A DNA stretch of 41,674 nt from Candidatus Martarchaeota archaeon (GTDB lineage Archaea; Micrarchaeota; Micrarchaeia; Micrarchaeales; Micrarchaeaceae). Numbering within the stretch: position 1 is the stretch's first letter; each line of letters starts with the position of its first letter. The DNA is taken from contig JAMCYW010000028.1 in assembly GCA_023473255.1 (NCBI GenBank), positions 1 through 41,674 on the forward strand, read 5' to 3'. The notes below the pieces were generated by a model. It had not been told where the DNA came from. It did no database searches and was given only the letters and a program-made list of their open reading frames with translations. The translations under genes were made by a program, and so were the position numbers. This document shows, piece by piece, positions 15,110 to 32,469 of this stretch.

Positions 15110-15502
15110 ATGAAATTTTTAGATGGCGTTTTGATGGGCATGGCAATGACCACGACCCATAAATATTTTAGGATGCTGATGCTGTTGGCCGCGATAGGCT
15201 CATTTGCTACGGTGCTCAGCAGTGCAGGGAACAGCCTTACAAGCAACGTACTGGCGCCAATCTGCGCAGTGTACGGTGCTGTGCATTCTGCGATATTTAT
15301 ACTTGGCCTTACGCTAATGATATTAGGAGGTGCGCTATACGCAGGTTCGCATATGATGCCAGGGACAAGCAAAGGCACTCTCCAGGGATACGGAATGGGT
15401 ATGATACTCGGCGGCGTAATAGGCGTTGTAATAGCTATTGCATCTCCTTACATATTGGGGCTGATTACTAGCAACAACAATATAACTGCCCAGTGCTCTT
15501 AG
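15110..15502 (+). CDS. VirB2/TrbC-like pilin candidate (small polytopic membrane protein)
   Basis: N-terminal hydrophobic segment, then VYGAVHSAIFILGLTLMILGGALYAGSHMMPG..LQGYGMGMILGGVIGVVIAIASPYIL (two TM with a short polar Gly-rich link, as in VirB2/TrbC). First gene of the locus. Confidence 0.6.
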   Translation: MKFLDGVLMGMAMTTTHKYFRMLMLLAAIGSFATVLSSAGNSLTSNVLAPICAVYGAVHSAIFILGLTLMILGGALYAGSHMMPGTSKGTLQGYGMGMILGGVIGVVIAIASPYILGLITSNNNITAQCS

Positions 15503-15556
15503 CAACAATATAACTTCCCAGTGCTCTTAGCAACAATATAACTGCCCAGTGCTCTT
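15470..15556 (+). repeat. three tandem copies of a 28-bp unit AGCAACAATATAACT(G/T)CCCAGTGCTCTT (first copy 31 bp)
   Basis: Read directly: 15470..15500, 15501..15528 and 15529..15556. Covers the 3' end and stop of the pilin-like gene. Confidence 0.95.
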
Positions 15557-15582
15557 CTTAATGAGCGGGCATAGCGCGCTTT

Positions 15583-15609
15583 TGTGGGATTTGCAATCCC
15601 ACATTTTTT
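15583..15609 (+). terminator. hairpin plus T-run terminator candidate
   Basis: TGTGGGATT TGC AATCCCACA TTTTTT: 9-bp perfect inverted repeat followed by 6 T, between two co-directional genes. Confidence 0.75.
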
Positions 15610-15632
15610 AAATCCTAGCTGCTATTATTATT

Positions 15633-16379
15633 ATGTCTGTGATAGCCTTGAAGAACATACTTGCTTATGCATATGAGACATACATGCAGAACATAAAGTA
15701 CATACTGCTCTTTTCACTCTCATTTGTCATAGCGTTTATCATACCTGTATTCGCTGCATTCCCTACATACAATGATGCAGGCGCAATATTCATAAGGACT
15801 GCAAGCGTATACTCAAATTTCAACCTTTTGGACATAGCCGTGATAGTGGTGTCAACACTCTTTTCGCTTCTGTTCCTGAGCTTTGCGGTCGTTGCAATAA
15901 CAACTATAATAAAGCACAAGCGCACAAGCACAAGGATAACAAAAGAGATAATAGAAGGATTGGAATCATACACCGGCAGGGTGTTTGCCGTGGTGCTCCT
16001 TTTTACTTTTGCATTAATGGCGGTAAACGTGCTTTCGTATTCTACGCATTATTCGGGTCTGCTGACCGCTGTCATCGGGCTTGCGCTTACCCCGTTTCTG
16101 ATATACGCGCCATATTCAATAGTAATTGATGAAAACAGGGTAGGCAGATCAATAAAGGCGAGTGCAAAATTCTTCTTCAAGCGCTTCGACTACTTCCTGA
16201 TATGGCTCTTGACTGCGATAATACTGCTGAGCATAGTGGATTTTGTATTTATAACCTTGAGCGGGACTATGCTATCAAGGTATCTTGTGCTGGTGGTGGA
16301 TTCCGTATTTGTGCTTCCATTCCTTGTTGTCCTCCAGGCCGAGATGTATATGCGCAGGTTTGCCATGCTCAATAGGTAA
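15633..16379 (+). CDS. polytopic membrane protein (DUF7847/UPF0259-like)
   Basis: About 6 TM segments and IDENRVGRSIKASAKFFFKRFDYFLIWLL. Family assignment tentative. Confidence 0.65.
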   Translation: MSVIALKNILAYAYETYMQNIKYILLFSLSFVIAFIIPVFAAFPTYNDAGAIFIRTASVYSNFNLLDIAVIVVSTLFSLLFLSFAVVAITTIIKHKRTSTRITKEIIEGLESYTGRVFAVVLLFTFALMAVNVLSYSTHYSGLLTAVIGLALTPFLIYAPYSIVIDENRVGRSIKASAKFFFKRFDYFLIWLLTAIILLSIVDFVFITLSGTMLSRYLVLVVDSVFVLPFLVVLQAEMYMRRFAMLNR

Positions 16380-16407
16380 TAAAAATCTTTATTGCTAAAG
16401 TGTAAGC

Positions 16408-17679
16408 ATGCCGAATAGGCGCATTGGCATGTTACTTGCCATGGTATTGCTTGCAGCGCTTCCAGCCGGCGCTATCGCCGGATCCGCGATTTCCTCTTCA
16501 AGCGTTACGAATTCATTGCAGAATTCATACTGCATAATAACCCAATCTTATAATACGCCAATAGGCGCCTGCATAATGAGCGCCCTGCCAATCGCGCTGA
16601 TAGGCATACTGCTTTCTATGATGCTAATAGCCGTCTCATACATGTTGGGAGAGGTATTCAACATAAGCAATCTGAAAGGGTGGTACAAGGGCGAACTTTG
16701 GGAGGTGGCAAAAAGCGTTGCAATAATAGTAATAATATTTGCGGTGCTCGTCATAATGAGCGGCATAGCCGCCACGCTTTATGGGCTGCCGTACAGTACA
16801 TCGCTGACAGGTAACCAAGTGAGTGCATCCGGCATAGTGCTCAACAATCTTGTAGGGGTATATACTGCCACAATGAATGATTACATCGTGCCTCAATATT
16901 CTGTTGTCAACGGGGCTCTCAACGGCATGATAGGCCTGTCGCTTGCCGTAGGCGCGCTCAAAAGTTTTACATATTCCCTATACTTTCCAATACCGATACC
17001 ATTCGCAGGATCGCTGGATTTTGGCTCTACTGGAAGCATATACAAGAGCAGCGTAATAGAATCGCTTGCAGCAGCGCCTAACCTGTCATTTGTGGTAGAC
17101 ATAATATCGCTGATTATAATACCTATAGAAATACTATTTTCTCTTCTGAGCGCGTATTTCATAGATATAGCTGCCATAGGCTTATCGGTATTTCTTCCTA
17201 TAGGAATAGTCCTAAGGGCAATTCCGTTCCTAAGGGGAATAGGTGGCACCATGATTGGCATAGGGATAATGATATCATTGATATTCCCATCCCTATTGCT
17301 GCTATTCAACATTCCTGTATCTAGCCTCATGGTGGGCCCCACTCCGACTGCCCAACCCGCATATTCGTGCAGCAGCAGCAACTACGTCTACTGCCTTATC
17401 ATGAACTTTATCAGTACGACTACAAATACCATACTGGGTGCGATAAAGAATATGGGATATTCGCTTACTGGAGCATATTACGGGCTGGCAACGTTTTTCT
17501 CGTCGCCGCCAAGCATATTCCCTGCGCTTAATTACATAACTGGCGAAGTAGAACAGGTCATACTGCAGTTCATACTGCTCATACTGGACATAATAATAAC
17601 GATTACGATCGGCAATTCAATAGCAAAGATGCTGGGCGGAAAGGTGCGCCTCGGGATAGGTAAATTTAAAGTTGCATGA
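16408..17679 (+). CDS. VirB6/TrbL-like polytopic membrane protein, paralog 1
   Basis: Signal peptide, YMLGEVFNISNLKGWYKGELWEVAKS, GIVLRAIPFLRGIGGTMIGIGIMISLIFP. Confidence 0.7.
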   Translation: MPNRRIGMLLAMVLLAALPAGAIAGSAISSSSVTNSLQNSYCIITQSYNTPIGACIMSALPIALIGILLSMMLIAVSYMLGEVFNISNLKGWYKGELWEVAKSVAIIVIIFAVLVIMSGIAATLYGLPYSTSLTGNQVSASGIVLNNLVGVYTATMNDYIVPQYSVVNGALNGMIGLSLAVGALKSFTYSLYFPIPIPFAGSLDFGSTGSIYKSSVIESLAAAPNLSFVVDIISLIIIPIEILFSLLSAYFIDIAAIGLSVFLPIGIVLRAIPFLRGIGGTMIGIGIMISLIFPSLLLLFNIPVSSLMVGPTPTAQPAYSCSSSNYVYCLIMNFISTTTNTILGAIKNMGYSLTGAYYGLATFFSSPPSIFPALNYITGEVEQVILQFILLILDIIITITIGNSIAKMLGGKVRLGIGKFKVA

Positions 17680-17699
17680 ATAATAAATTATGATAATGG

Positions 17700-18845
17700 T
17701 TGGTGTTTGTTTTGCTTATAAACAGTTGCGCATTGTTCGGAGGATCGACATACGTAAATAGCTGGCTCGGCATAAACTACATGGTTATAGCTGCATCATT
17801 CGCCGTCCTTGCTTTCCTATACATGCTCGCCAGGTTTTTCCCAGGCGCAACAAAATCAAAGGTGTCTAGCTTATTAAAGGTAGACATGGCCCAGTTGATG
17901 CTCAGCATAGTCCTAATATTGATACTCTTGGGCATGTCGCAGCTTACGTGCAATATAACATCTTCGCTAAGCCAGACGCTTGTCGGCACGTCCCTGTCTC
18001 CATTCCAGTATGCCGATTTTTATATAGGAAACTTAGCAATGAACACAGGGCTTAAGCTCCTCGGGACAATATACAGCACATCTGTAACATATGCCATAGA
18101 CGCTTCGGTGCTTACCAGGATTGGAGAAGCATCCCCTTTGCATAGCTTAGGCAATGCATCTGTCGTTGGCATAGACATCAACATAGGGCAGGATTTCGGG
18201 GCAGCGTACGGCAGCCTTTCGGATGTCTATTTTGATTTATTCGCGCCCTTTACCATAGTGGCCATCGGCGCATTATTCCTGCAGTACATATCGTTGCCGC
18301 TCATAGAATTTACGGCTTTCGTAGTCGTATTGCCCATAGCGCTGGTCTTGCGATCGATATCGCTTACGGGCTCTGGGTTGCGAACGACAGCCAATGCATT
18401 CCTGGCGATAGCCATAGCTGCGTATCTTGTATATCCTTTGATGATAGCATTCAATGCGTATGCGATACACTGGATATTCAGCGGAAACAATCCCTTATAT
18501 GGGTGCACCGGATGCATAAGCACTGCATATTCGCTGAATAACCTGCCGTCATCATCATTCTTCAATTCTGTATCGAGCCAAGGCGCAACCTTTGATGGCA
18601 TTACTACGCCGGCAATAAGCTCGCTCATAGGCAGCACATATTTCAGCAACCTGGGTGCGCAGTTCGACCCGATATATGTGGTAAGCAGCGCGCAAACTTT
18701 GATAACGGAGATATCGCAATTTATATTCACCGCCATATTTATGTTCGGCATAGACATAACTGTAACGATAGGATTCGCAATGGGTCTGGCTAACGGGCTC
18801 AATTCTGGAGTAGAAGGCGCAGGGTCATTCTGGGGCAGTCTATGA
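17700..18845 (+). CDS. VirB6/TrbL-like polytopic membrane protein, paralog 2
   Basis: YMLARFFPGATKSKVSSLLKVDMAQLMLS, ALVLRSISLTGSGLRTTANAFLAIAIAAYLVYP. TTG/GTG start. Confidence 0.65.
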   Translation: MVFVLLINSCALFGGSTYVNSWLGINYMVIAASFAVLAFLYMLARFFPGATKSKVSSLLKVDMAQLMLSIVLILILLGMSQLTCNITSSLSQTLVGTSLSPFQYADFYIGNLAMNTGLKLLGTIYSTSVTYAIDASVLTRIGEASPLHSLGNASVVGIDINIGQDFGAAYGSLSDVYFDLFAPFTIVAIGALFLQYISLPLIEFTAFVVVLPIALVLRSISLTGSGLRTTANAFLAIAIAAYLVYPLMIAFNAYAIHWIFSGNNPLYGCTGCISTAYSLNNLPSSSFFNSVSSQGATFDGITTPAISSLIGSTYFSNLGAQFDPIYVVSSAQTLITEISQFIFTAIFMFGIDITVTIGFAMGLANGLNSGVEGAGSFWGSL

Positions 18846-18852
18846 GGTTGGT

Positions 18853-20331
18853 ATGATGTTTGACATATTGGGCATTGGAAAAATAATACTTCAGCTTCCA
18901 TCATTCAGCAACGTGAAGTCAGACTTGATACCTCTGGCGTTCATGGCCCTGCTTTTCGATTCTGTGATAATAGGCATATGGTACATTGTCGCCACGCTGC
19001 TGCAGAACCAAGGCGCAAAGGAGTCCGCAAAGAACGAATTCTACCAGTTCGTCGGCACAATAGTCATGATAAGCATAATCATATTCGTCATAACGACCTT
19101 CGGCGTCATATTCTACAACGGGCTCAATTCAACATCGCTCATGGACAGCTCGTCCATATACGCACTGTGCAATGGCATAGCTGCGCATTCGCAGCTGGGC
19201 ATATTGAACCCTGCGCATTCGGTGACTTCGCATTCCGCATCGCTGCTGGTCCAGAGCAGTTCGTCATCTGCATCTTTTCCAGGGCTATGCAGCCTTGTAA
19301 ACTCCCCGTCATCTTTGACTGAAATGGTTGACTATCCGCTGGCTGCGTCAGGGGTAATAATAGCAAACATGACTAACCAGACTGCAAATAACATGAACAG
19401 CTTCTTCATATACGATGCATTCCTCGGATTTCTGGAAACGGTCTCCCCAACGATAATGTACTGCGGCAACCCTGCCTTTCTGCTGTGCCTTGGCCCTATT
19501 CCAACGCCTATGGTATTCTTCCTAACCGTTTCTTTCACCCCGTACAAAGGGATAAGCCTTATATACAGGACTCTTGCAACATTGGGCTCGGTGCTCAACC
19601 TTGCATTTGAATCGTTCATAGTCCAGCTCAATTTCATTTCCATATTCATTTACGCATGGCCGTACCTGCTGTTCATAGGCATCATATTCCGCGCGACCGT
19701 ATTCACGCGCAAGATAGGCGGGCTTTTCATAGCCGTAGCCATAGGCGTTATCCTGTTTTATCCGTCCGTGTTCGCAATAGAATACCTATCATTAGGCAAC
19801 GGGATCGGCTCCGCTCTCACCGCAAGCTCAAGTTCTACCATAAGCATAGCGTCAGCCTACGGCTTCAATTCCCTGTTAAGCGAAAATACGACCTATATAC
19901 CTTCGTCTGTGTACAACTCCATATCAAAAAGCTATAACCCGTATGTAGTCAATTTCTACGACATGCCTCAGATAAAATATGCAGGCAAGGCAAACGGATG
20001 CTGGCCTTCAGGTGGAAATTTAATATCAGCTGAAGCTGAAGACATAGCATACTTGTTCATACCGTTCAGCAGCATAGCCTCGATGATCAATGTGGCTGCG
20101 TCATCTGTGATATCGACCGATCCGATAAAATCCTTCTATCTGCCATCGTACTGTTCACCGGCTGAAGCTGCAGATACGCTTTACACTCTAATGGACGAAT
20201 ACGGCGTCATATCCGTATCGGCATACTTTCTGCCCATAATCAATATACTGATAGTTATTACTGGTATAATAGGGCTTTCTGGACTTCTGGGCGGGGATAC
20301 CGAATTGGCAGGTCTTTCGAGGTTGGTATGA
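18853..20331 (+). CDS. VirB6/TrbL-like polytopic membrane protein, paralog 3
   Basis: YIVATLLQNQGAKESAKNEFYQFVGTIVM, GIIFRATVFTRKIGGLFIAVAIGVILFYP. Confidence 0.7.
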   Translation: MMFDILGIGKIILQLPSFSNVKSDLIPLAFMALLFDSVIIGIWYIVATLLQNQGAKESAKNEFYQFVGTIVMISIIIFVITTFGVIFYNGLNSTSLMDSSSIYALCNGIAAHSQLGILNPAHSVTSHSASLLVQSSSSSASFPGLCSLVNSPSSLTEMVDYPLAASGVIIANMTNQTANNMNSFFIYDAFLGFLETVSPTIMYCGNPAFLLCLGPIPTPMVFFLTVSFTPYKGISLIYRTLATLGSVLNLAFESFIVQLNFISIFIYAWPYLLFIGIIFRATVFTRKIGGLFIAVAIGVILFYPSVFAIEYLSLGNGIGSALTASSSSTISIASAYGFNSLLSENTTYIPSSVYNSISKSYNPYVVNFYDMPQIKYAGKANGCWPSGGNLISAEAEDIAYLFIPFSSIASMINVAASSVISTDPIKSFYLPSYCSPAEAADTLYTLMDEYGVISVSAYFLPIINILIVITGIIGLSGLLGGDTELAGLSRLV

Positions 20332-21428
20332 TGCATGCTAGAATCATAAGGAGCAAAGCCATCTTGTTGATAGCTGCGGCGCTGGTGTTCTTACAGCTTG
20401 CAGTGCCCTCAGGTGCAAGCACTGTAAGCGCATGCACGTTCAATTCTCAAGTAGCTGCAAATTTCGACGGCGCAGGCGCAATGATAAGCATAGCGCTGCT
20501 GCTAATACTAACAATGTTCATAATAACCGGCATAACCTATGCGTTGTCATCCGTCTTCAAGCTGGACAAGCTTGCAAGGTTCAGCAGAGTGGAGATAGGT
20601 GAGATAGCTGTAACATTGCTTATAGTGCTCATATTCCTGGGCACATTTTCTGCCTCCAATGCAATATCTGGGCCAAGCTCTTTCTTCCCTGCTGCAAATC
20701 ATCCAATAAGCTCGCAGACATTCTCGTCAGCGTGCGAAGGGCTTTCTGCAAGTTCATTTAATCTGGTGGGCCCTCTGATAGTCTTCGGCATGCAACAGGA
20801 GGTCGTCTCTCTATTTGCATCTATAAGCATAAGCGTATCGCCGAACTTTTTCGGTTTCAGCGTAAACCCGTTTATGGGCCTTAAGGTTATATCTAGAGTA
20901 TTAACATTCGCAATGAGCGTAGGCACAGGATTCATAGGCCTCATGGTGGGTATGATTGTAGTGCTTTATATAATATACGGGGTCTTTCCGCTGTTCTTCT
21001 TCATAGGCATAGTGCTGAGGACAATACCGTGGACAAGGGCTGCAGGCGGCTCATTCCTCGGGCTATTCATAAGCTTCTACATTCTATTTCCATTGCTCCT
21101 GCACTTCTTGCTGGCTGCCAATATTGTTGCAATTCCGACATCTACACAATCAAGCACCAGCAGTGCTTTAAGCTCAACCGCGTCCAGCGTAAGCCAAGAG
21201 TTTTCATTGGGCCCTTTGAGTGTCTTATCCGATCTTGCAAACATGGTCAGTGTGCTTCCCTCGCAAGTACTTAGTAATTTCATAACGTATATAATAACAC
21301 CAACGATATTCACGTTGGTTGCAGTAGCGATATCGCTTATAATCGCATTCGATTTCAGTGAAACCATAGGCAGTTTCCTCGGTGCATCGAGCCTTACATC
21401 AAGTAGGATGTTGAACAAGGTCGTGTGA
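20328..21428 (+). CDS. VirB6/TrbL-like polytopic membrane protein, paralog 4
   Basis: Signal peptide, YALSSVFKLDKLARFSRVEIGEIAVTLLIV, GIVLRTIPWTRAAGGSFLGLFISFYILFP. 4-bp overlap with the preceding gene. Confidence 0.7.
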   Translation: MMHARIIRSKAILLIAAALVFLQLAVPSGASTVSACTFNSQVAANFDGAGAMISIALLLILTMFIITGITYALSSVFKLDKLARFSRVEIGEIAVTLLIVLIFLGTFSASNAISGPSSFFPAANHPISSQTFSSACEGLSASSFNLVGPLIVFGMQQEVVSLFASISISVSPNFFGFSVNPFMGLKVISRVLTFAMSVGTGFIGLMVGMIVVLYIIYGVFPLFFFIGIVLRTIPWTRAAGGSFLGLFISFYILFPLLLHFLLAANIVAIPTSTQSSTSSALSSTASSVSQEFSLGPLSVLSDLANMVSVLPSQVLSNFITYIITPTIFTLVAVAISLIIAFDFSETIGSFLGASSLTSSRMLNKVV

Positions 21429-21432
21429 AAAC

Positions 21433-23949
21433 ATGTCAAAAAGAAAGAATTCAAAGAACATGCAAAAGTTTGCCGGTGCGGCGCTATTCCTATTCGTTAT
21501 GCTGTTCTTTGCACTGCATGCGCCATATGTTTCGCATGTGCCAATGCAGGCAAACTCAATACTATCAACGTACCATTTCGCATATGCCCTTCCGAATTTC
21601 GCTATGGCATCTGTATCGGCAAGCAATTCGAATGATGGCGCAAGCAGCACAGTGCGCAATCTAAGCGATGTTGCGTTTCTTCCTGCATGTGCTTGCGGCA
21701 GCACCATATCCCGTTGCGGCGTTACGGAAAACGCATGTGCATGCCCGTCCGATTGCCCTGAAATATCCACTTTAGTGTTGTGTGTCGGCTCTGTAGGCAA
21801 CCGTGGAATCGAGAAATACTGCACATCATTACCGCCTCCTCCTGCATTCTCTGTATCTATATCTCCTACATCTGACACATATTACATAGGACAAACCATA
21901 TCGATAGCTGCGTCAGTCTCTAACGGCAATTCGCCATACTCATACCAATGGTACAACGACACAACCGGAACGCCGGTAGCCATTTCGGGGCAGACATCAT
22001 CGACATATTCCGCTACTGCATCAGCTACGGGCAAATTCTCATATTATGTTATAGCGACGGACAGCTCAGACAAAACTGCGCAGTCTTCAACAGGCCAGTA
22101 TACCGTAGTCAGCATGGGGGGAACTCTTTCGCCGACTAAATCCATATTGGATGCAGGCCAAAACGTAGAATTGCAGGCATCGTGGGTTGGCGGAGTTCCA
22201 AATTATATTGTAACATATTATTCCGGCACGTCATCAAGCTGTTCTTCCGATACAAATGTTGTTGCATCCTACTCGAATATACCAACTACGGCAAATTCGA
22301 TATATGTATCTCCTACGTCATCGGCATACTATTGCGTTGCGGTGACCGACAGCGTTGGCCAGACGATAAGCATTGGGCCGTCCGACATAACTGTAAATCC
22401 TGCCCTATCAACTCCAACCATATCTTCTGCAAGCACGACATACGATGACGGGCAGACAATAACGCTTGCAGCTTCGGTATCCGGAGGCACGCCTCCATAT
22501 ACTACATATGAATGGTTTAATTCTACAAGCGGCACAGGCATTCCTGTCCAAATATCATCATCTTCGACATACACCGAAATTGCAAATGGCAGGGGCACCT
22601 TCGATTATTACGTAGACGTAGCCGATTCTGCAACATCGCCTGCCGTTTCACCGGATTCAAAACCTATACAGATAACGGTCAACGGGCTTCCAACGCCTAC
22701 GATAACGCCGTCTGGGACTGCGATTTCGCAAGGAAGCAGTGTAACGCTCAAAGCCTCTGCAACTGGGGGCACGCCTCCATACACATACCAATGGTACAAC
22801 GACACTTCAGGAACGCAAATTCCCATAACTGGGGCAGAATCTTCAGAATACATATTTACGACTTCTTCATCTACCGCATTTGGGCTGTACTATTATAGCG
22901 TAAAGGTGACCGACAGTGCATCGCCTCCGCTTTCTGCCATATCTGCAGAAGCATCAATAAACGTGCTCCCTAAAGCATACCAGAGCCTTTTGGGCGCCCC
23001 TGAAACATGGCTCTCCATCGCATTCGTATTTACATTGATAGTAATACTGATAGCAGCCATAGTGTACATGCTTGCAAGCGTCATAAGCAGCTCTAATGCA
23101 AAGAACTGGGCGCGCATCCAAATATACGAAGCGGTCTTTTCGGTGGTGCTATTCATAGCATTCATATCGGTAATAGGCGTATTCTTCATAAATCCACAGG
23201 CAGCATACAGCAGTGCGGGCCTGGTGCCAAGCACATGCTCTGCTACCGATATAAATACACTTTTCAACATGTCTGCTTGCGATATCGGCGCATTCAGCAA
23301 CACTGCCTTCGGATATTTTGGAGGTTTATTTTATTTGGGATACGTAATAGGATTCGTTCCTGGCTTTGACGTCGTCGCGCACGTCCCAGGGCAGATGGGC
23401 ATCTCAGTCAAAGCAGGCTTAGAATCGGTATTCCCCAAAAGCCTGGAAGCCGGGCTTTCATTAGCATTTTCCATGATACTATTCATGCTAATGCTAAACA
23501 ACATACAGCTTATATTGATAGCGGGGTCGTTCTTTTTCCTAGTTGTATTCATCAGCATAGGATTGCTGATAAGGGTACTTGGATTTACAAGGTCGTTCGG
23601 AGGCGTACTGATAGCATTGGGCTTAGGGCTCGGCATAGTCTTCCCATTGCTTACGAGCATAACATACGGCTTTATAAATGTCCAGATGCAGTCCCAAGGC
23701 TTAACATATCTGCTTTCCTCAGCCAATCTGGCGACTTTAGTGGCTGGATTCCTATCGCCTGCAACTGCAATAAGCGGCAGCGTATATATGTTACTGATGT
23801 CTATGGTGGAAGGCATAGGCTACCTTGCGGCTGGGCTTACATTCGTCCCTTTTATAAATTTCATAATATTAGATGCTTTTATAGTTGACTTTTCAAAAGC
23901 AATAGGAGAAAGGATAAACTTCATGTCCATGATGGGCGGACTGATATAG
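21433..23949 (+). CDS. VirB6/TrbL-like polytopic membrane protein, paralog 5, with N-terminal Cys-rich segment and four Ig-like domains
   Basis: Four repeats of the form TPT(I)..G..V.L.AS..GG.PPY.YQWYNDT.GT..; then YMLASVISSSNAKNWARIQIYEAVFS and GLLIRVLGFTRSFGGVLIALGLGLGIVFP. Confidence 0.75.
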   Translation: MSKRKNSKNMQKFAGAALFLFVMLFFALHAPYVSHVPMQANSILSTYHFAYALPNFAMASVSASNSNDGASSTVRNLSDVAFLPACACGSTISRCGVTENACACPSDCPEISTLVLCVGSVGNRGIEKYCTSLPPPPAFSVSISPTSDTYYIGQTISIAASVSNGNSPYSYQWYNDTTGTPVAISGQTSSTYSATASATGKFSYYVIATDSSDKTAQSSTGQYTVVSMGGTLSPTKSILDAGQNVELQASWVGGVPNYIVTYYSGTSSSCSSDTNVVASYSNIPTTANSIYVSPTSSAYYCVAVTDSVGQTISIGPSDITVNPALSTPTISSASTTYDDGQTITLAASVSGGTPPYTTYEWFNSTSGTGIPVQISSSSTYTEIANGRGTFDYYVDVADSATSPAVSPDSKPIQITVNGLPTPTITPSGTAISQGSSVTLKASATGGTPPYTYQWYNDTSGTQIPITGAESSEYIFTTSSSTAFGLYYYSVKVTDSASPPLSAISAEASINVLPKAYQSLLGAPETWLSIAFVFTLIVILIAAIVYMLASVISSSNAKNWARIQIYEAVFSVVLFIAFISVIGVFFINPQAAYSSAGLVPSTCSATDINTLFNMSACDIGAFSNTAFGYFGGLFYLGYVIGFVPGFDVVAHVPGQMGISVKAGLESVFPKSLEAGLSLAFSMILFMLMLNNIQLILIAGSFFFLVVFISIGLLIRVLGFTRSFGGVLIALGLGLGIVFPLLTSITYGFINVQMQSQGLTYLLSSANLATLVAGFLSPATAISGSVYMLLMSMVEGIGYLAAGLTFVPFINFIILDAFIVDFSKAIGERINFMSMMGGLI
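21934..22816 (+). repeat. intragenic near-identical 40-bp segments (21934..21973 and 22777..22816)
   Basis: CCATAC(T/A)CATACCAATGGTACAACGACAC..C.GGAACGC: 36/40 identical, offset 843 bp (281 codons), in Ig-like domains 1 and 4. Confidence 0.9.
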
Positions 23950-23956: not shown

Positions 23957-25177
23957 ATGATCCGCATAAAAAAAATAGCAAGGAACACGCTTTTCTTTGC
24001 AGCCGCAGCAATGCTGGTTATTGTGCTGCTGCATGCAGCTAATGCGTCAACCGCTACACACGCTATAACGCCAGTATCCTTAAGGATTATAGGAGGTGGA
24101 GGAACTGGAGGCAAAGGGGCTGGAAGCGGAGGAGCCGCTTTAACCCCTCCTACTGTATCTTCTCAATGCGCACTGGTGCCGTTAGCAATATCCGCTAGCA
24201 TAGAGAAGAACGAATCATGGTACTGCCCCATAAACGAGCAGGTATACAGTGCGTGGCTAAACTATCTGCCTCTGGCACTTATAGTGCTGCTGCTGGCTTT
24301 CTTCATTGCCTCAATGATATTCATGATAGGCACTGCATTGAGGAATCAAAAGATGAGAAATTTCGGGATCGGCGAGATATACGAGGTCCTTGCAAGCGCG
24401 CTGATAATAGGGCTTTTCGTGTACATAAGCGCGGTCATGTTCGGCATCGTGCCTGCCGTATTCGTAGGCAATATAAATCCCTTTGCGACATCACTGCACC
24501 TCATAACGAGCACGATAAGCTCGGCTGAAAATATTTATACATCGCTTTTCAACGTCTACATGACAGACGCATTCATAGGCAGCATAAGCGTGTCAATAAC
24601 GACACCTGTCACAAAAACAGGCGCCCTTACTAGCCTGATCGAAAGCGCCCAGCAGATAATATTAGTCCTATTCATGGCTCCGGCACAGACGCTGGCGTCA
24701 TATATTGCAGATGGCATCTTTGCGCTATATGCTGAATACTACCTGATACTGTTCTTTGCAGTAGCCGCCGTCCCGGTATTCCTAATCCCAGGAGTCATCT
24801 TCAGGGTGATGATACCGACAAGGGCATTGGGCGGGATGATGATAGCACTAGCGCTGGGGTTCTACTTTGTGATGCCCATAATGTTTTCAGTGGCATATTA
24901 TTTCACAGCGCCGCAACTGATGTCGCAGCTCAGCGCTGAGTCATTGCTGCTGAACAGGTTCAGCACGTCTAGCGTGCAGCTCAGCTCTATCAATCCGTCA
25001 AACCCTGCCATGGGCGTCCTTAGCGAAATAAACACATCGATGCAGAGCTTTTGGCTTCTGATATTGTTCTATCCTACGCTGATAATATCTGTCACATATG
25101 CATTCGTAGTGCAGGCTGCCAACTTCATCGGCGGGGCAGCACAAATGGGCGGAAGGATAAGGGGCGGATTCATATAG
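23957..25177 (+). CDS. VirB6/TrbL-like polytopic membrane protein, paralog 6
   Basis: Signal peptide, Gly-rich linker IIGGGGTGGKGAGSGGA, FMIGTALRNQKMRNFGIGEIYEVLAS, GVIFRVMIPTRALGGMMIALALGFYFVMP. Confidence 0.7.
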   Translation: MIRIKKIARNTLFFAAAAMLVIVLLHAANASTATHAITPVSLRIIGGGGTGGKGAGSGGAALTPPTVSSQCALVPLAISASIEKNESWYCPINEQVYSAWLNYLPLALIVLLLAFFIASMIFMIGTALRNQKMRNFGIGEIYEVLASALIIGLFVYISAVMFGIVPAVFVGNINPFATSLHLITSTISSAENIYTSLFNVYMTDAFIGSISVSITTPVTKTGALTSLIESAQQIILVLFMAPAQTLASYIADGIFALYAEYYLILFFAVAAVPVFLIPGVIFRVMIPTRALGGMMIALALGFYFVMPIMFSVAYYFTAPQLMSQLSAESLLLNRFSTSSVQLSSINPSNPAMGVLSEINTSMQSFWLLILFYPTLIISVTYAFVVQAANFIGGAAQMGGRIRGGFI

Positions 25178-25192: not shown

Positions 25193-25199
25193 TTTTATA
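25193..25199 (+). promoter_or_regulatory. candidate TATA element (TTTTATA) for the ATPase sub-operon
   Basis: AAGGTTTTATACC in the longest gap between the VirB6-like block and the VirB4 block. Confidence 0.4.
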
Positions 25200-25235
25200 C
25201 CAATAAGTATGAATGCAGTTATATGAGAGATTTGG

Positions 25236-26072
25236 ATGGCTAACAAAATCGTAAATTTCCTTGGGCTACTCATGGTATCTGCGATGCTTCTAATCATAAG
25301 CGTTGTCCTTCCAGTATCCATAATGCCGTATTTCGCAAAGCTCATACTGCTTCTCCTTGCTGTCATAGTTGACATACTTGCATTCTCATCGCGATACTAT
25401 GCCTATCTGCTTATGCCGATATTAAAGCAGAGGAGCAGGCACATAATATTGAGCAAGGAGGACGCATATTGGATGGCTACATCTGCAGATTCAATATTGC
25501 ACAGGAACAATGAGGATTACATTGCAACGGTCTACATATCGATACCGCTGTATCTATCAGCTACTGAGATGCCTGACGAGCAGAAGCTCGAATTTTCAAG
25601 GCAGGTGAGCAGGCTTGTAGGTATTGCGCGCGATCCTGTAAGATTCACAAGCCAGATGTATGTGATGAACAAGGATTCGTACATACAGCAATTGCGCGAC
25701 GCCATAAATTTATCGGAAAACGAGGAAGCCGAATTGGAGCAGAAGCCTGATGCATCGAAGGATGCCATTGAAAGGGTGAAAGGAAAGACTGCAATGTGGA
25801 GGAACCTTCTGGACAGCATAAGCAAGGATCTCTCGTTTGAGCTTATAAGCTATGCTTCGGTATCCGGAGTGGGCAGCAAGGAATACGAGGCCGTAAGCGT
25901 TGCCCAGCAAAAAGCAAGGGAGCTGATGTCAGGCATAGGTTCAATATTCGGGATTACGCCGAGCATAATAACCGGCATGCAGCTCAAGAAGTTCATAGAG
26001 CCAGATTCGCTTATACCATTCTCTACGGTTACGGAACAGATAAACAAGAATCTTGAGGAAGAGGTCATATAA
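25236..26072 (+). CDS. VirB3-like 2-TM plus VirB4 N-terminal-like domain protein A
   Basis: Two adjacent N-terminal TMs followed by a soluble domain (ATVYISIPLYLSATEMPDEQKLEFSRQVSRLVGIARDPVRFTSQMYV ... EAVSVAQQKARELMSGIGSIFGITPSIITGMQLKKFIEPDSLIPFSTVTEQI). Position immediately upstream of the VirB4-like ATPase. Confidence 0.55.
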   Translation: MANKIVNFLGLLMVSAMLLIISVVLPVSIMPYFAKLILLLLAVIVDILAFSSRYYAYLLMPILKQRSRHIILSKEDAYWMATSADSILHRNNEDYIATVYISIPLYLSATEMPDEQKLEFSRQVSRLVGIARDPVRFTSQMYVMNKDSYIQQLRDAINLSENEEAELEQKPDASKDAIERVKGKTAMWRNLLDSISKDLSFELISYASVSGVGSKEYEAVSVAQQKARELMSGIGSIFGITPSIITGMQLKKFIEPDSLIPFSTVTEQINKNLEEEVI

Positions 26073-26902
26073 TGGATGAAGAAGGAGCAATATTCCTGAT
26101 ATTTTCGCTTATGCTCATACTCATAGCGTTCTCTCTGCTGTCGTCATTCGGCAAGGGGATATACCCTATCATAGCCGTGCTTATACTGGTTTTAGGCGTA
26201 GTGATGATACTCGCTTTAAACTGGGCTGATTTCATTATAATGCCGGGGATTACGTCGATGCTGGGCATCACGTTCCAGCCGGCCAATAATTACTACATAA
26301 CTAAGAGGCAGGACGCAGTTGTGAAAAATGTAAGCGGGCTCTTCTATGCCACTGGATACGTAACCGCGAACATATTCGGCTACCTGTTCAAGGAGGAGAG
26401 CGCGCCTGAAGAGGATGAGGAGCGCCTGATGCTCGCCCCAGAATCATATGAGCGCCTCGTGATGAACATCGATTTCCCATATAAGTTTCATGTGATATCG
26501 TCAGGCATGGACATACAGAATGTTAGAGACGAACTTGAAGGCAAGCGTTCCTACCAGGAATTCGAGATGTCCCGCGCTTTGCAGGGCAACGCCAACGAGG
26601 TTACAATAACAGACATACAGAGGAAGATGAACGTAGTGCAGGCAAAGATAGACCGCATATCGAAAGGCGAAAAGCCAATAGCTACGCTTATGTATATAGA
26701 AACCACTGCGATAGGGGTAAGCGAGAAAGCTGCGTTTGACGCATTGGAGGAGCAGGTGAAAAGGCTGCAGGTAGCATTCAGCGCATTCGATCTTGAGTTG
26801 CGAAGGATAGTGGGCAGGGAACTTTACACATTATTCCAGTTTAATTTCGCATTGCCTGTATCGTTTGCAGAAGAAGCCTCTCAGTTCAATCAGCAGAGTT
26901 GA
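26072..26902 (+). CDS. VirB3-like 2-TM plus VirB4 N-terminal-like domain protein B
   Basis: Same architecture as the previous CDS (two TMs, then alpha/beta domain with long helices). Overlaps it by 1 nt (ATAATGG). Confidence 0.5.
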   Translation: MDEEGAIFLIFSLMLILIAFSLLSSFGKGIYPIIAVLILVLGVVMILALNWADFIIMPGITSMLGITFQPANNYYITKRQDAVVKNVSGLFYATGYVTANIFGYLFKEESAPEEDEERLMLAPESYERLVMNIDFPYKFHVISSGMDIQNVRDELEGKRSYQEFEMSRALQGNANEVTITDIQRKMNVVQAKIDRISKGEKPIATLMYIETTAIGVSEKAAFDALEEQVKRLQVAFSAFDLELRRIVGRELYTLFQFNFALPVSFAEEASQFNQQS

Positions 26903-26929
26903 TAATTTATTGCATTAATGAATTAGGGT

Positions 26930-28444
26930 TTGAATATGACATTGTTGAAATTGCAGCATATAATGAGCAACGAGATTGCAAAGAGGGCATTCCTTTCCAG
27001 GCCTCCCGAGCCTCCGTCAAATGTGCTGATAAACGATCCTTTCCAAGGCATATATATAGGAAATACGAAGATATTCAAGGTGCCTTTCAGCTGGACATTC
27101 GCAAATGTCACAAACCCGCACATAGCGGTTGTCGGAATAACCGGCGCAGGCAAAAGCTATTTCGTAAAAACGTTTTTGATACGCGCCAACTACGTCTGGG
27201 GCACCAATGCTGTAATAATTGACTGGGCTGCCGAATACAAGGCATGGGTAAAGCAGAGCGGCGGCACCATAGTATCGCTCGGCAAGGGCGACTACATAAA
27301 CATCATGGACCTTTCAGGCATGAAGCCACTGGACAGGGTCAAGCAGATACTTACCGCATTTGACATACTGACCGACATAGGCATGTATCCGGAACAGAAA
27401 AGGCTTACTGAAGAAGCCCTCGAGCAGGCGTATGTCAACGGAGGGTTCAACCTTTCCGAGCGCGCCCCTGACGGCGTGGATGCGCCTACCATAAAAGACG
27501 CCATATCCCTTCTTGAAGAGCATCTGCAGGAAGGCACATATGAATATCCTGCAGAGCTGGAAAATGCAATATATAGGCTGAGGCAGTTCGCGCGCGAAGG
27601 CGAGGACTATTTTGCAAGGAAAAGCACGCTAAATCTATCAAAGATTGCAGAATCCGGAATGGTGGACATAGACCTGTCAGGATTGCCCGACGAAAGGTTC
27701 CGTGCCCTCGCAGCCCTCTTCATATTGCAGACATTAAAGGAGAGAATGCGCGTAGAAGGCTGGAGCGAATCTAAAGGCATAAAGACGATGGTGGTGCTGG
27801 ATGAAGCATGGAAGGTGGCAAGCGACGAGAAGAGCGATGCCATAATGATAGTCAGGGAAGGAAGAAAATACCAATTCGGCCTGATAGTTGCATCGCAGAA
27901 TCCAACCGATATAAACGAGGCCATATTCTCTAATGTGGGCACTACGTTCATGCTTAGGATAAAGTTCGAGAAATTCATGAATTACCTGCAGGGGTCTATG
28001 AACTTCTCAGAGTTCATAAGGTCTGAGATAAGCAAGTTCGGGGTAGGGCAGGCAGCCGTGAATATGGCGTTCCAGACTGCGCAGCATTTTCCAGAGATAT
28101 TTATACTTGGGCGCATCAAAGGCGAGGAGCCGCTTTATGTTTATACATTGGATATGGCCGATGTGCTGACGCAGAGCGAGCTTTCAGCCGGCATTATGCA
28201 GCGCGACTACCAATTCGAAGGCGATGAGCTCAAGAACAAGTTCATAGAATATAATGTGACGTTAGAGGTAATAAACGCAGTATTCGCCCAGCTTGATGCG
28301 CAGAAGCGCTCTATGAAAATGCTTGATTTTATAAGGCTGATGAAAGAGAATGGAGTTAACAACAATGACCTGGTAACGTTCCTTAAAAGCATAAGCATAG
28401 AGGATACGCTGATAGCCAGGATAATATCCGCATCAGGTAGTTGA
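26930..28444 (+). CDS. VirB4/TraC-type ATPase (HerA-FtsK superfamily)
   Basis: Walker A VGITGAGKSYFVKTF, Walker B MVVLDEAWKV (DEAW signature), VASQNPTDINEAIFSNVGTTFMLRI. Confidence 0.9.
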   Translation: MNMTLLKLQHIMSNEIAKRAFLSRPPEPPSNVLINDPFQGIYIGNTKIFKVPFSWTFANVTNPHIAVVGITGAGKSYFVKTFLIRANYVWGTNAVIIDWAAEYKAWVKQSGGTIVSLGKGDYINIMDLSGMKPLDRVKQILTAFDILTDIGMYPEQKRLTEEALEQAYVNGGFNLSERAPDGVDAPTIKDAISLLEEHLQEGTYEYPAELENAIYRLRQFAREGEDYFARKSTLNLSKIAESGMVDIDLSGLPDERFRALAALFILQTLKERMRVEGWSESKGIKTMVVLDEAWKVASDEKSDAIMIVREGRKYQFGLIVASQNPTDINEAIFSNVGTTFMLRIKFEKFMNYLQGSMNFSEFIRSEISKFGVGQAAVNMAFQTAQHFPEIFILGRIKGEEPLYVYTLDMADVLTQSELSAGIMQRDYQFEGDELKNKFIEYNVTLEVINAVFAQLDAQKRSMKMLDFIRLMKENGVNNNDLVTFLKSISIEDTLIARIISASGS

Positions 28445-28445
28445 A

Positions 28446-28760
28446 ATGGCAGCTAAAAATATCGGATCATATTCGATAACGAGGCCTGAATTAAGGCGCA
28501 TATTGGTAGCATACAAGGTCGATGAGAAGAATGTGGAAAAGCTGTTCTCCGATATGGAGAAGGCGCACAGGCACATAAATATCGTCACGTTTATATCCCT
28601 GCTTGAGAAATCAGACATACAAAAGCCTACAATATCTAACATATTGAGGAGGCTCGGGATGGACGATGTGAAGATAAACAACGCTCTCAACATGGCAGAC
28701 GAGCAGAAGCTTGCATCAGAATCGGGGCGCATATACGAAGCCATAATAGACTTCGACTGA
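28446..28760 (+). CDS. small all-helical accessory protein
   Basis: 104-aa ORF starting 1 nt after the VirB4-like stop. Segment resembles the C-terminal tail of the VirB4-like protein. Confidence 0.65.
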   Translation: MAAKNIGSYSITRPELRRILVAYKVDEKNVEKLFSDMEKAHRHINIVTFISLLEKSDIQKPTISNILRRLGMDDVKINNALNMADEQKLASESGRIYEAIIDFD

Positions 28761-28762
28761 GA

Positions 28763-29143
28763 GTGGCATATATGGACAAAAATTACAGGTGTATCCTATG
28801 CGGGCAGGAGAAGAATGGCATACCGGTCAAGGCTGACTATATCATAAACGGCATAAGATGGTTTAAGCGCAACGTGACCAAAAACGAGAAGCATTATACT
28901 CTAGTGGTGTGCAAAGACGATTATAAAAAATACCACAAGGCGCGCTCATCTTTCATCAGAAAGCAGGTCGAATACGTAGCGCTTGGCATAATATTTACCA
29001 TAATGCTTGCCATAACCTCGCGGGGAAACCTGACTGGCATATTCGTAGGGGTAATAATAACGTTGTTCCTGTATTTCCTGTCATTGCTGAGTTATATGCC
29101 TCCACTTGCGCTGCCAAATAAATACGATGATGCGCCCAAGTAG
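28763..29143 (+). CDS. zinc-ribbon-like protein with C-terminal TM pair
   Basis: YRCILCGQEKNGIP (CxxC), later VVCKDDYKK, then two hydrophobic segments. Confidence 0.65.
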   Translation: MAYMDKNYRCILCGQEKNGIPVKADYIINGIRWFKRNVTKNEKHYTLVVCKDDYKKYHKARSSFIRKQVEYVALGIIFTIMLAITSRGNLTGIFVGVIITLFLYFLSLLSYMPPLALPNKYDDAPK

Positions 29144-29158
29144 CCCACAGTTCAACGC

Positions 29159-29165
29159 TTTTATA
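29159..29165 (+). promoter_or_regulatory. candidate TATA element (TTTTATA)
   Basis: CGCTTTTATAATTAA in the 86-bp gap upstream of ATG 29229. Confidence 0.4.
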
Positions 29166-29228
29166 ATTAACTGACAATAATAAGTATGCAATGCGCATTG
29201 GAATGTGCTCGCCCGAGATTGTGATAAA

Positions 29229-29957
29229 ATGGTTGAAAATGTAGGAACCGTAGAACCAAAGATTTCAGAATTTTCCATAAAAGGGACGCTGTTAGGGGAT
29301 TTTTCCGCGATGTCAAACAGGTTTTCTACGCTGCAGATGTTCTCAATAAAAATAAATCACGACAGCCTTGTATTGCTTACTGTGGAAAGCAGGGACATAC
29401 AAAAGAATCCATTCTTATTTTTCATAATAACATTCAAGGCAGACGCTATAGAAGTCAAATACTCGATAGCGCTGGATACGAGCGAAAAGATGAGGCGCAT
29501 CTATGTTGTCAAGAACCTTCTCTCCGTACTGTCGCTTGTAGCGGATCTCTATTCGCCAGACCCAGTATCATTATACCAGTATGTAGATTCATCGATAGAT
29601 GAATTGACTGGGTCGCTATCGCAAAGCTACAGTGCGCTATTCAATAATTATGATTCGCTATTCAATGAATATAGGGAGCTCAAAAGGCTAAACATAGAGC
29701 TTGCATCGTCAAACAAGAACCTTACTGCCCAGGCAACTGAGCTCAGCGCGCAAAATAACGAGCTTACTGAAAGGCTAAAGCAGCTTGAGACGTATTCCGA
29801 CGAATCCCTGATGGTCATGATTGAGGAATGGATAGATTCTCATAACAATACGATAGACCTGGCCGAGTTCGCAAAGACCTACAGAATAACCATACCGAGA
29901 GTTGAGCAGATGCTAAACAAGATGGTTTCAATGAGTTATATAGAGCTTAAAGGTTAG
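29229..29957 (+). CDS. coiled-coil protein with C-terminal winged-helix-like domain
   Basis: Long heptad region NYDSLFNEYRELKRLNIELASSNKNLTAQATELSAQNNELTERLKQLE, then IDLAEFAKTYRITIPRVEQMLNKMVSMSYIELKG. Confidence 0.7.
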   Translation: MVENVGTVEPKISEFSIKGTLLGDFSAMSNRFSTLQMFSIKINHDSLVLLTVESRDIQKNPFLFFIITFKADAIEVKYSIALDTSEKMRRIYVVKNLLSVLSLVADLYSPDPVSLYQYVDSSIDELTGSLSQSYSALFNNYDSLFNEYRELKRLNIELASSNKNLTAQATELSAQNNELTERLKQLETYSDESLMVMIEEWIDSHNNTIDLAEFAKTYRITIPRVEQMLNKMVSMSYIELKG

Positions 29958-29961
29958 TTGC

Positions 29962-30096
29962 ATGATATACAATGCAAGGATAAACAAGAGGATAAAATAT
30001 ATCCGCATATATACTGTGCTAAAGCATGTCAGGGGCGAGCAGAACATGCTGACCAAGCTATTCGCCAGGGTATTTGCTGGTAAAAACAAAGATTGA
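29962..30096 (+). CDS. 44-aa basic microprotein
   Basis: MIYNARINKRIKYIRIYTVLKHVRGEQNMLTKLFARVFAGKNKD, tightly packed between two co-directional genes. Below the ORF-track cutoff. Confidence 0.45.
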   Translation: MIYNARINKRIKYIRIYTVLKHVRGEQNMLTKLFARVFAGKNKD

Positions 30097-30111
30097 TGCG
30101 GTGCACTGCAA

Positions 30112-32469
30112 GTGGTCAACTTCAAAAAAATATTGGCATTGATACTTATAATGGTCATAGTGCTAGTTGGGATATTCGGGTATATTGCAGTTATGCTGCG
30201 GAATGCATCATCAATTCCTGCGCCTATCACTGCCGTGCATAATGTGACTACTGAGTTATATTCATCTATGATATCGCAGAACATGCTATTCTATAACCAG
30301 AACAGCTCTGCATTTCCATATTCGCTGCTCTCCTATGAAGCTGCAAATGTCCCATATGCAATTTTAAATGTATCGCTGCTGGGATCACTTCCACCTTCTA
30401 ATGTGTACATGCTCAACTATTCTAACGACTGCTTTAGCTGCGGAAACGCATTTGCAGCAGCAAGTGCAATAAAAAACGACCTAGTATCATACGGCGTGAT
30501 TAATTCAGGAGCATCGGTAGGCATGCTTTCCAAGCCGGATCTAACAACGATAAATAACGATTCGCTGCTCATAATAATAAACGGGCTAATGCCCTCTTAC
30601 ATGTTTGAGTACATAAATGGCACAAATGAAACAATGCTGCAGTACCTGCTGAATCGCGGCACAAGCATAATATATGTCGGGCAGAGTTTTTCCAGGCTTG
30701 TTCTTCCGGGCGGGGTCGTCGTGCCAAATTCGAACAACCTTCCATTCCTGTCTACATTTTCAACATCTCTTCCGAAAACAAGAACATTTTATTTTAGCAA
30801 TGCCACATTTGGTTTTACCTCAGGGAAGACATACGGCACTGCGTCTTATGCAAACATTTTCAACGGTTCCATAATAGCATTTTCAAATTATCTTAATTCA
30901 TGGGGGAGCCCAAATGAAGCGGGCAGCGACATAGCGAAGGCGGCCGCCCAGGAATTCTGGATACCAAAATACGCTTCTGGCATCGGATTTATACCAGTTG
31001 GCAATTACAACAAAAGCTCGGGAAACATAGGCATAATATTGAATCAAACGGGATTTGCATACAACCCGACGTCATTGCCTAAGCTCAATGCAGGTTACCT
31101 GCGCGTCGCATTGTATGACAATATGACATACAATATTACTAATGCCAGCATATACAGGTATTATCTGTACTCTCCAAATTATTCGATAAACGGATCAATA
31201 TCGCTGCCGGCAGCCATTATTCCGGGCGCATCTACTCCTGCAACGCTTGAAGTATTTACAAAGTCATCCATACCTATAAGCATACAGCCCCATCTCAGCA
31301 TATATACCCTCAACATGAGCAGGGTTGAGACGCTGCCTCTGCAATTCTTTTCGGCGTATGGCAACTTCACCTTCTTAAAATACATAACGCTGCGGCTTCC
31401 CCCCGGGGAATACATTGCAAGGCTGGAAAGCTTCTCGAACATGCAGTATGCTGCTGCGCTTTTTCAAGTGCCTAAAATAAAACTTTCCATGTCCAACGCA
31501 AACTTTTCGTCAAACGTATATAATATAGCAGTGTCATCGGGCGGCATACCCTTATCAGGCGTGAACTACTCAATATCCGTAAATGGGCTATACAAAAGTT
31601 CGGGCGTTATAAGCAACGGCACACTGTATTATGCACTGCCATCAGGGTCGCCAAAGATAAACGGCAATGCCACATTTGCTATTTCAATGCTTTCAAGGAA
31701 CTTTACATACGTATTTGTGCGCCCATCATCTGCTATAAAAATAAGCAGCCAATACATAGAGCTTGCAGTAGTTGCAATAATAGTATTGATGATGGTTACG
31801 CTGGTGAGGGCGCCCAACAGGGACGAATTTTATATAGACGTGCCTAATCTGCCAAGGCAGGATAAGATACCAATAAAGCTAAAGCCCAATGAAGTAATAG
31901 GCGTCTTTGACAAGCTCAACTCCTATTACCATTGGAAGTATATGCCCCTGTCAAAAAACGAGGTAAGGATGGCAATCGCAACGAATCTCAGGAAGAACAA
32001 TATGCCGATTAACCTTACATATAATAATGTGGATGTCATACTGAGCCAGCTAGTCGAAAAGAATGAATTGGTGTCGATAGATGACCTATATGCGCCTAAG
32101 GCATGGATAGACGCGAGCAAGCACGATATAGAATACCTCGCAGTGTTCAAGAAACTGAGGCTTTATTTCGTTTCGCATGCGCTGATATTCAGCGATCTTG
32201 ATGCGAGCACTGTGGCAGACATGACAATAGTGTCGCATGGAGAAAAGCTATACGTTGTTATATTCTCGCCTACAAGCCGATTCAAGAACATACCTGTATA
32301 TGCGAATTCCATAACATATATCGCATTCATTAATGAAGATAGGCTGGAAGAATTCAAGGATTCGCTTTATAGCAATGTCTCTCCAGATGTGGAGCAGCTG
32401 AAACTCTATATATCTGCCGGGATGATAAGGCTCATAGACGTAGACAACCCAGATGGCATAAGAATATAA
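30112..32469 (+). CDS. large membrane-anchored surface protein (N-terminal TM, about 530-aa sequon-rich ectodomain, second TM, about 200-aa cytoplasmic tail)
   Basis: GTG start; TM ILALILIMVIVLVGIFGYIAVML; many N-x-S/T; second TM YIELAVVAIIVLMMVTLV followed by a charged helix-rich domain. Confidence 0.75.
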   Translation: MVNFKKILALILIMVIVLVGIFGYIAVMLRNASSIPAPITAVHNVTTELYSSMISQNMLFYNQNSSAFPYSLLSYEAANVPYAILNVSLLGSLPPSNVYMLNYSNDCFSCGNAFAAASAIKNDLVSYGVINSGASVGMLSKPDLTTINNDSLLIIINGLMPSYMFEYINGTNETMLQYLLNRGTSIIYVGQSFSRLVLPGGVVVPNSNNLPFLSTFSTSLPKTRTFYFSNATFGFTSGKTYGTASYANIFNGSIIAFSNYLNSWGSPNEAGSDIAKAAAQEFWIPKYASGIGFIPVGNYNKSSGNIGIILNQTGFAYNPTSLPKLNAGYLRVALYDNMTYNITNASIYRYYLYSPNYSINGSISLPAAIIPGASTPATLEVFTKSSIPISIQPHLSIYTLNMSRVETLPLQFFSAYGNFTFLKYITLRLPPGEYIARLESFSNMQYAAALFQVPKIKLSMSNANFSSNVYNIAVSSGGIPLSGVNYSISVNGLYKSSGVISNGTLYYALPSGSPKINGNATFAISMLSRNFTYVFVRPSSAIKISSQYIELAVVAIIVLMMVTLVRAPNRDEFYIDVPNLPRQDKIPIKLKPNEVIGVFDKLNSYYHWKYMPLSKNEVRMAIATNLRKNNMPINLTYNNVDVILSQLVEKNELVSIDDLYAPKAWIDASKHDIEYLAVFKKLRLYFVSHALIFSDLDASTVADMTIVSHGEKLYVVIFSPTSRFKNIPVYANSITYIAFINEDRLEEFKDSLYSNVSPDVEQLKLYISAGMIRLIDVDNPDGIRI

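Follow-up and report, generated by a model that had tools for sequence, protein, structure and literature searches.

Ced is a chromosomal DNA-transfer system of Sulfolobales that operates without a relaxase and comprises CedA, CedA1, CedA2, CedB, CedD, and CedE (PMC11868833; PMC9905601). In Ced, CedA is the channel, CedB and CedD are ATPases, the N-terminal parts of VirB4 are spread over separate proteins, and CedA was proposed to hetero-oligomerise with its second paralog, CedE (PMC11868833). Ted, which is found in Thermoproteales, contains a chromosomal VirB2/VirB4/VirB6 trio (TedA, TedB, and TedC) whose pilin has a cleavable signal peptide (PMC9905601). Among bacterial type IV secretion systems (T4SS), the R388 conjugation machine serves as a structural model, in which a VirB6 homopentamer forms the channel base and lies above a VirB4 hexamer of dimers (PMC9259494). 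Here a related locus is described from Candidatus Martarchaeota archaeon (Micrarchaeota; assembly GCA_023473255.1, 618 kb, 83% complete). The window analyzed is the whole of one complete contig (JAMCYW010000028.1, or G000:C18) of 41,674 nucleotides. Positions 15110-32469 hold 15 genes, all on the + strand, which encode a pilin, M6, A1-A6, S1, S2, an ATPase, sm, Zn, CC, and SURF (Table 1).

The locus most probably encodes a resident, vertically inherited T4SS/Ced-like machine, to which we assign a rough probability of 90%. Sequence and fold indicate a pilin of the VirB2 type, channel proteins related to VirB6/CedA, an ATPase related to VirB4/CedB, and domains that resemble the N-terminus of VirB4 and are anchored in the membrane, without the relaxase or coupling protein used in conjugation. 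Of the systems characterized so far, the archaeal Ced/Ted DNA-exchange system is the nearest relative; it was not named in the first-pass annotation of this DNA. The new elements are the kinship with Ced and T4SS at the level of homologs, the phylum-wide conservation, the split VirB4, a minimal system residing in the same genome, and an invariant set of six VirB6-type paralogs. No paper describing the apparatus was found in a literature search that left out most subscription papers, and the main text of the papers on the cultivated strain A_DKE mentions neither secretion systems nor pili.

A1-A6 were found to be true mutual paralogs, as every pair reached a probability of 96-99% in hhalign. 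All A proteins, those of single-A modules included, are marked by a core motif (R 97%, R 95%, G 93%, and P 100%; n=150). When the A6 model was compared with 350,542 Protein Data Bank (PDB) chains using Foldseek, the top two matches were TrwI/VirB6 chains of R388 (8rt9_F, prob 0.97; 7o3v_G, prob 0.99), and VirB6 chains of R388 occupied ranks 1, 2, 6, and more. The CedA model matched 25 of 60 Micrarchaeota genomes, and the placeable matches among those listed were A genes; among the named control genomes, it matched Sulfolobus acidocaldarius only. A Pfam scan of the transmembrane (TM) cores of the A proteins in the window gave no informative match, and a hidden Markov model (HMM) search of PDB sequences with A6 returned nothing relevant.

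S1 and S2 each consist of a 2-TM hairpin joined to a domain that resembles the VirB4 N-terminus. In the same Foldseek comparison the top three matches of the S2 model were R388 T4SS chains (8rtb_A, 8rtd_O, and 8rtd_T; prob 0.96), whose length of 747-808 residues is that of TrwK/VirB4. When 71 S2 orthologs were scanned against Pfam, the only matches were spurious ones to coiled coils or TM segments, and an HMM search of PDB sequences with S1 gave nothing relevant. The ATPase matched the NCBIfam models CedD (2.6e-19), CedB (8.6e-19), and VirB4 (1.5e-16). HerA profiles matched it as well, and a PDB sequence search returned both HerA and VirB4 structures. Moreover, hhalign against plasmid proteins found VirB4, and the Walker A (GITGAGKS) and Walker B (LDEAW) motifs were near-invariant in 19 orthologs. 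In a different genome (G086), a VirB4-like ATPase (L190:2626-5826) appears to carry an intein-like insert just before Walker B, with a Cys start, an Asn-Cys end, and a LAGLIDADG-type motif.

The pilin was identified through its orthologs, 6/14 of which matched Pfam TrbC (best 9.7e-8) and 6/14 T4SS_pilin; in the Pfam scan the copy in the window matched neither family on its own. An hhalign comparison with 255 plasmid open reading frames ranked R388 VirB2 first, a weak match with a probability of only 6.9%, and an HMM search of PDB sequences with the pilin gave nothing relevant. The pilin also aligned to the N-terminal helices of A2 (hhalign 84%), and an alignment of the same kind between pilin and channel protein was published for CedA1/CedA and VirB2/VirB6 (PMC9905601). 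Two Cys are kept in 32/32 pilin orthologs, the first where helix 1 begins and the second at the C-terminus. Because this pair is present in every one of them, the sequences suggest a pilin closed by a disulfide. The first-pass annotation had proposed a VirB2/TrbC-like two-TM pilin, six polytopic paralogs, a VirB6 component, and a stand-alone VirB4-type ATPase with the two motifs above. These proposals are upheld, respectively, by the TrbC matches among orthologs, by the all-pair hhalign result, by the CedA profile (A4) with the VirB6 fold (A6), and by motif conservation with profile matches. Its two 2-TM proteins with soluble domains are likewise paralogs; a 2-TM anchor with a VirB4-N-terminal-like domain is a better reading of them than VirB3, and no VirB3 profile match was found in S1 or S2. 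That annotation had recognized neither sm as a copy of the ATPase C-terminal domain nor the minimal second system elsewhere in the genome.

Genomes of Micrarchaeota were surveyed, with those at least 90% complete counted as high-quality. The ATPase was present in 246 of the 295 genomes of the phylum, including 89/96 of the high-quality ones, and its identity was 97-99% within the genus, 66-83% within the family, 61-69% within the order, and 52-60% within the class. Relatives of S2 were found in Micrarchaeota genomes only, a few of these bins being labelled Marsarchaeota. Gene content and order are kept in at least 52 distinct genomes, far beyond chance, and the cultivated Ca. Micrarchaeum sp. 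A_DKE (NZ_CP060530) carries the system. A relative of conjugation machines with six related channel proteins instead of one thus appears near-universal in Micrarchaeota, and is a candidate for carrying large molecules, DNA among them, across the surface of the cell. The operon is intact in families f1, f2, and f11. In other orders, the S-ATPase-Zn-CC-SURF block is separate, and each genome has its A genes in two unlinked clusters. At six loci (L167, L169, L171, L172, L176, and L178) one of the two six-A clusters ends in a giant single-TM protein of 1153-1669 aa; the four of these that were scanned have a lipobox-like Cys at the start and no Pfam domain.

The number and order of the A genes were examined at 64 loci containing both M6 and S1 (52 distinct S1 sequences). 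The exact order A1-A2-A3-A4-A5-A6 was found in 61/64. The other three are L109, with a split A2, L120, with split A3 and A4 (and split M6 and top6B), and L068, whose A5 is hidden by a long A6 start. L109 and L120 are frameshifted loci of metagenome-assembled genomes, and a separate comparison of the operons shows A5 of L068 to be present. Detached clusters also contained exactly six A genes in 15/15 cases. A tree was built from 150 A proteins, and in 144/144 cases the closest protein from another locus shared the position of the protein compared. Monophyly was seen for positions 1, 2, and 5 (24/24 each), positions 3, 4, and 6 were unresolved at depth, and within each cluster type nearly every position formed a clade. 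Because six distinct, ordered paralogs are never lost, an obligate six-membered ring is proposed, and the chances are about even that A1-A6 together build a single hetero-hexameric base of the channel within the membrane. The fuller proposal, held tentatively and at slightly less than even odds, is of an obligate channel with one gene per ring position that was fixed before Micrarchaeota diversified. Such a machine, with every subunit of its channel ring differentiated, would be a first for the type IV class; it would stand beside a homomeric relative in the same genome, and would be a probable route for DNA or other macromolecules between DPANN cells and their partners.

The candidate for that relative is a minimal Ced-like module, the second system of this genome (G000:C26:9318-12860, L181, - strand), which encodes a 134-aa pilin, a single A protein of 338 aa, one S protein (249 aa), and an ATPase (456 aa). 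The arrangement pil-A-S-ATPase(-CC) was found in several of the lineages examined, with L182 as the copy in A_DKE. This single-A module would be the homomeric, ancestral-type version. Strict six-fold diversification of a channel protein, with the single-gene version kept in the same genome, offers a direct test of how homomeric rings evolve into heteromeric ones.

Taken as a whole, the locus is best explained, with somewhat better than even odds, as a resident Ced/T4SS-like machine in which these parts act together. A1-A6 would form the membrane pore as a hetero-hexameric base, and S1 and S2 would anchor the hexameric ATPase under this ring. The ATPase may drive assembly of the membrane pilin into a short tube, possibly stabilized by the terminal disulfide, and may move a polymer through the ring. 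DNA is the most likely cargo, at roughly one chance in two, and is favored because the closest ATPase models (CedD and CedB) are DNA-translocating, with effectors or host metabolites as possible alternatives. The missing relaxase does not exclude DNA transfer, because the nearest characterized relative is a DNA-exchange system. Contact with a partner cell would be made by the varying Ig-like and other extra domains of the A proteins and by the ectodomain of SURF or, in other orders, by the giant anchored protein, as these surface parts suggest. For the exchange of material between DPANN archaea and their hosts, these 15 genes provide a phylum-wide candidate machine that is present in a cultivated strain. 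Cryo-electron tomography has revealed tubes and contacts that resemble pili, as well as a 21-nm docking barrel in a Micrarchaeota cell (PMC11329633; PMC4110969).

The first-pass annotation had read the locus as a resident chromosomal apparatus rather than an integrative conjugative element (ICE), and had seen no relaxase, integrase, or VirD4 in the window. None was seen there in the present analysis, and the reading stands. An ICE or its recent remnant would account for the VirB2-, VirB4-, and VirB6-like genes, and conjugative elements have been suggested for Mia14 (PMC5498576). However, PF03432, the one relaxase family searched, and the VirD4-type family PF02534 were each found in 0/13 genomes, five of them single-contig. 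Moreover, top6B is a fixed neighbor in two families, divergence of the ATPase tracks taxonomy, and the GC content of the operon equals that of its flanks. In 72,556 plasmid records, the only matches were partial ones of the ATPase to TraC/DUF87-type proteins, at 22-27% identity; phages gave one partial match to the ATPase (21%) and viral contigs none. Because of this vertical identity pattern, the lack of these two families, and the absence from plasmids and viruses, and with the ATPase in nearly all high-quality genomes, the ICE was rejected as very improbable. Just as improbable is a mere side-by-side placement of transporters from unrelated families and a DNA repair ATPase of the HerA type. 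Pfam alone names none of the membrane proteins and HerA profiles fit the ATPase, yet gene order is widely kept, CedA and TrbC profiles match, and adjoining genes independently gave VirB4 and VirB6 folds; a placement of the membrane proteins among unrelated transporters is largely refuted by these results.

A more serious competitor, though one that we consider clearly less probable than not, is a protein-secretion or host-contact machine for an episymbiotic lifestyle, with effectors and not DNA as cargo. T4SS genes of Patescibacteria are needed for epibiotic growth (PMC12102498), giant Ig/VirB4 proteins of nanohaloarchaea were proposed to act on hosts (PMC10266531), A5 carries an Ig-like domain, and ARMAN cells make pili-like contacts (PMC4110969). 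On the other hand, no effector or coupling ATPase was seen, the ATPase is closest to DNA-translocating models, and at high resolution the connecting tubes in a Micrarchaeota co-culture arise from the host (PMC11329633). It is also conceivable, although unlikely, that the six A paralogs are alternative homo-oligomeric channels or surface variants, used by time or partner, within a resident T4SS-like machine. Individual A proteins do differ widely in length from one genome to the next, reaching 1237 aa, and the five VirB6 paralogs of Rickettsia also have divergent flanking domains (PMC2653234). Free gain and loss would then be expected, yet six genes occur in fixed order in the 64 operons and 15 clusters, with one-to-one orthology across the phylum.

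Several results weigh against the T4SS/Ced-like machine as proposed. Foldseek E-values for the A6 and S2 models are modest (0.024-0.05) with TM-scores mostly below 0.4, so the fold evidence rests on rank among the chains searched and on agreement between neighboring genes. Most A proteins and the S proteins have no VirB profile match by sequence, and hhalign of both families against single plasmid proteins was not resolved. The CedA score of A4 is 30 bits against an equivalog cut-off of 330, and the ATPase scores 68 against 700 bits for CedB and 69 against 600 bits for CedD. No coupling ATPase was found (PF02534, 13 genomes), and neither VirB8 nor VirB11 had a Pfam match in the operon proteins, to which that search was confined. 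A six-membered ring is not modelled on a known structure, because VirB6 of R388 is a pentamer. Seven genomes of other orders have two six-A clusters each, and L040, L074, L078, L088, and L104 hold S-ATPase-sm-Zn blocks without adjoining A genes; in G026 (L040), six A genes lie in the detached cluster L180. Because S1-S2-ATPase occurs without adjacent A genes in some genomes, the A genes and the ATPase need not be co-transcribed. Finally, the cargo and the direction of transport are inferred.

Table 1. Features of the operon and their predicted assignments (positions in the window)
Feature	Position	Strand	Assignment	Evidence
pil	15110..15502	+	VirB2/TrbC-like pilin	two TM helices after a signal peptide; short basic loop with K/R; Cys pair at the termini
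Hairpin + T-run	15583..15603	+	possible partial terminator between pilin and M6	14 such sites vs 15.5 expected from shuffles, hence weak
M6	15633..16379	+	conserved 6-TM protein, not an A paralog	syntenic in complete operons; hhalign to A4 0.3%
A1	16408..17679	+	VirB6/CedA-type polytopic protein	hhalign to A2-A6 98.6-99.4%; position-1 clade 24/24
A2	17700..18845	+	VirB6/CedA-type polytopic protein	position-2 clade 24/24
A3	18853..20331	+	VirB6/CedA-type polytopic protein, larger in some relatives	
A4	20328..21428	+	VirB6/CedA-type polytopic protein	NCBIfam CedA NF041796, E 2.6e-7 (2.7e-8 in genome search)
A5	21433..23949	+	VirB6/CedA-type, large N-terminal Ig-like region in this species	Pfam Ig_3 1.3e-13; position-5 clade 24/24
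A6	23957..25177	+	VirB6/CedA-type polytopic protein	AlphaFold (AF2) model, pLDDT (predicted local distance difference test) 80.8
S1	25236..26072	+	2-TM anchor + VirB4-N-terminal-like domain	paralog of S2 (hhalign 97%)
S2	26072..26902	+	2-TM anchor + VirB4-N-terminal-like domain	AlphaFold (AF2) model, pLDDT 81.3
ATP	26930..28444	+	VirB4/CedB/CedD-like ATPase without own N-terminal domain	Pfam DUF87, AAA_10, P-loop_TraG
sm	28446..28760	+	stand-alone copy of ATPase C-terminal helical domain, 104 aa	hhalign to ATPase columns 430-509, 97.4%
Zn	28763..29143	+	Zn-ribbon-like + 2-TM protein	class-wide synteny; Cys motif and two TM helices visible in sequence
CC	29205..29957	+	coiled-coil protein, winged helix-turn-helix-like C-terminus	
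SURF	30112..32469	+	membrane-anchored, ~520-residue ectodomain + conserved cytosolic tail	conserved and linked across class

Every gene listed in the first-pass annotation is open at the position given there, and the placement of the locus between a glycan cluster and top6B was confirmed: top6B lies downstream of SURF on the opposite strand, and a carbamoyltransferase and a PMT-type glycosyltransferase lie upstream. Genes from M6 through Zn are tightly packed, spaced by -4 to 58 bp. The pilin gene opens with an ATG at 15110, a TATA-like element lies at ~15061, and a 28-bp tandem repeat (2.9 copies, 15475-15556) duplicates the 3' end of the pilin gene past its stop codon. Sequence searches found no PDB relatives of SURF or CC, the two matches of SURF being designed proteins, and an Rfam search returned nothing. 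Elsewhere in the window, an AAA ATPase (3878-5236) strongly matches the PADLOC candidate family PDC-S01 (2e-102).

Compared with R388 and other conjugative T4SS (PMC9259494), which provided the best structural matches of A6 (VirB6) and S2 (VirB4), the Micrarchaeota operon has no VirB5 or VirB7-VirB11 found by Pfam among its proteins and no VirD4 or relaxase of the families searched in the 13 genomes. Moreover, VirB4 of R388 is one protein. The rvh T4SS of Rickettsiales (PMC2653234) shares several VirB6 paralogs, divergent extra domains, vertical inheritance, and host-dependent cells; however, it has five paralogs, not six, and is a bacterial diderm system with VirB8-VirB11 and VirD4. The two VirB6 expansions look independent. 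Patescibacterial T4SS are resident, mostly relaxase-less systems of small epibiotic cells with VirB4/VirB6/VirB2-like parts, but they belong to the MPF_FATA lineage with PrgI/VirB3, and the available part of that report mentions no VirB6 expansion of this kind (PMC12102498). In nanohaloarchaea, which are also DPANN, a VirB4/TraG-like ATPase is linked to Ig-like ectodomains in a proposed T4SS; there the ATPase is fused to a giant adhesin, and no six-gene VirB6 set is reported in the portion of the source that was available (PMC10266531).

The archaeal systems are closer. The Micrarchaeota machine shares with Ced a CedA-like channel protein (by profile match), a CedB/CedD-like ATPase, a 2-TM pilin, and VirB4 N-terminal parts on separate proteins. 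It differs in having six CedA-type proteins instead of one or two, an ATPase whose N-terminal domain sits on the anchored S1 and S2, the extra proteins M6, sm, Zn, CC, and SURF, and a pilin with a signal-peptide-like segment and a terminal Cys pair. Its scores, far below the Ced equivalog cut-offs, mark its proteins as homologs and not equivalogs. Ted has one TedA, with no S1/S2 or conserved surface proteins described (PMC9905601); a signal peptide is predicted for the Micrarchaeota pilin as for that of Ted. The minimal (beta) module pil-A-S-ATPase is closer in size to Ted and Ced. With the Micrarchaeota systems, the Ced/Ted class of archaeal T4SS relatives extends to DPANN.

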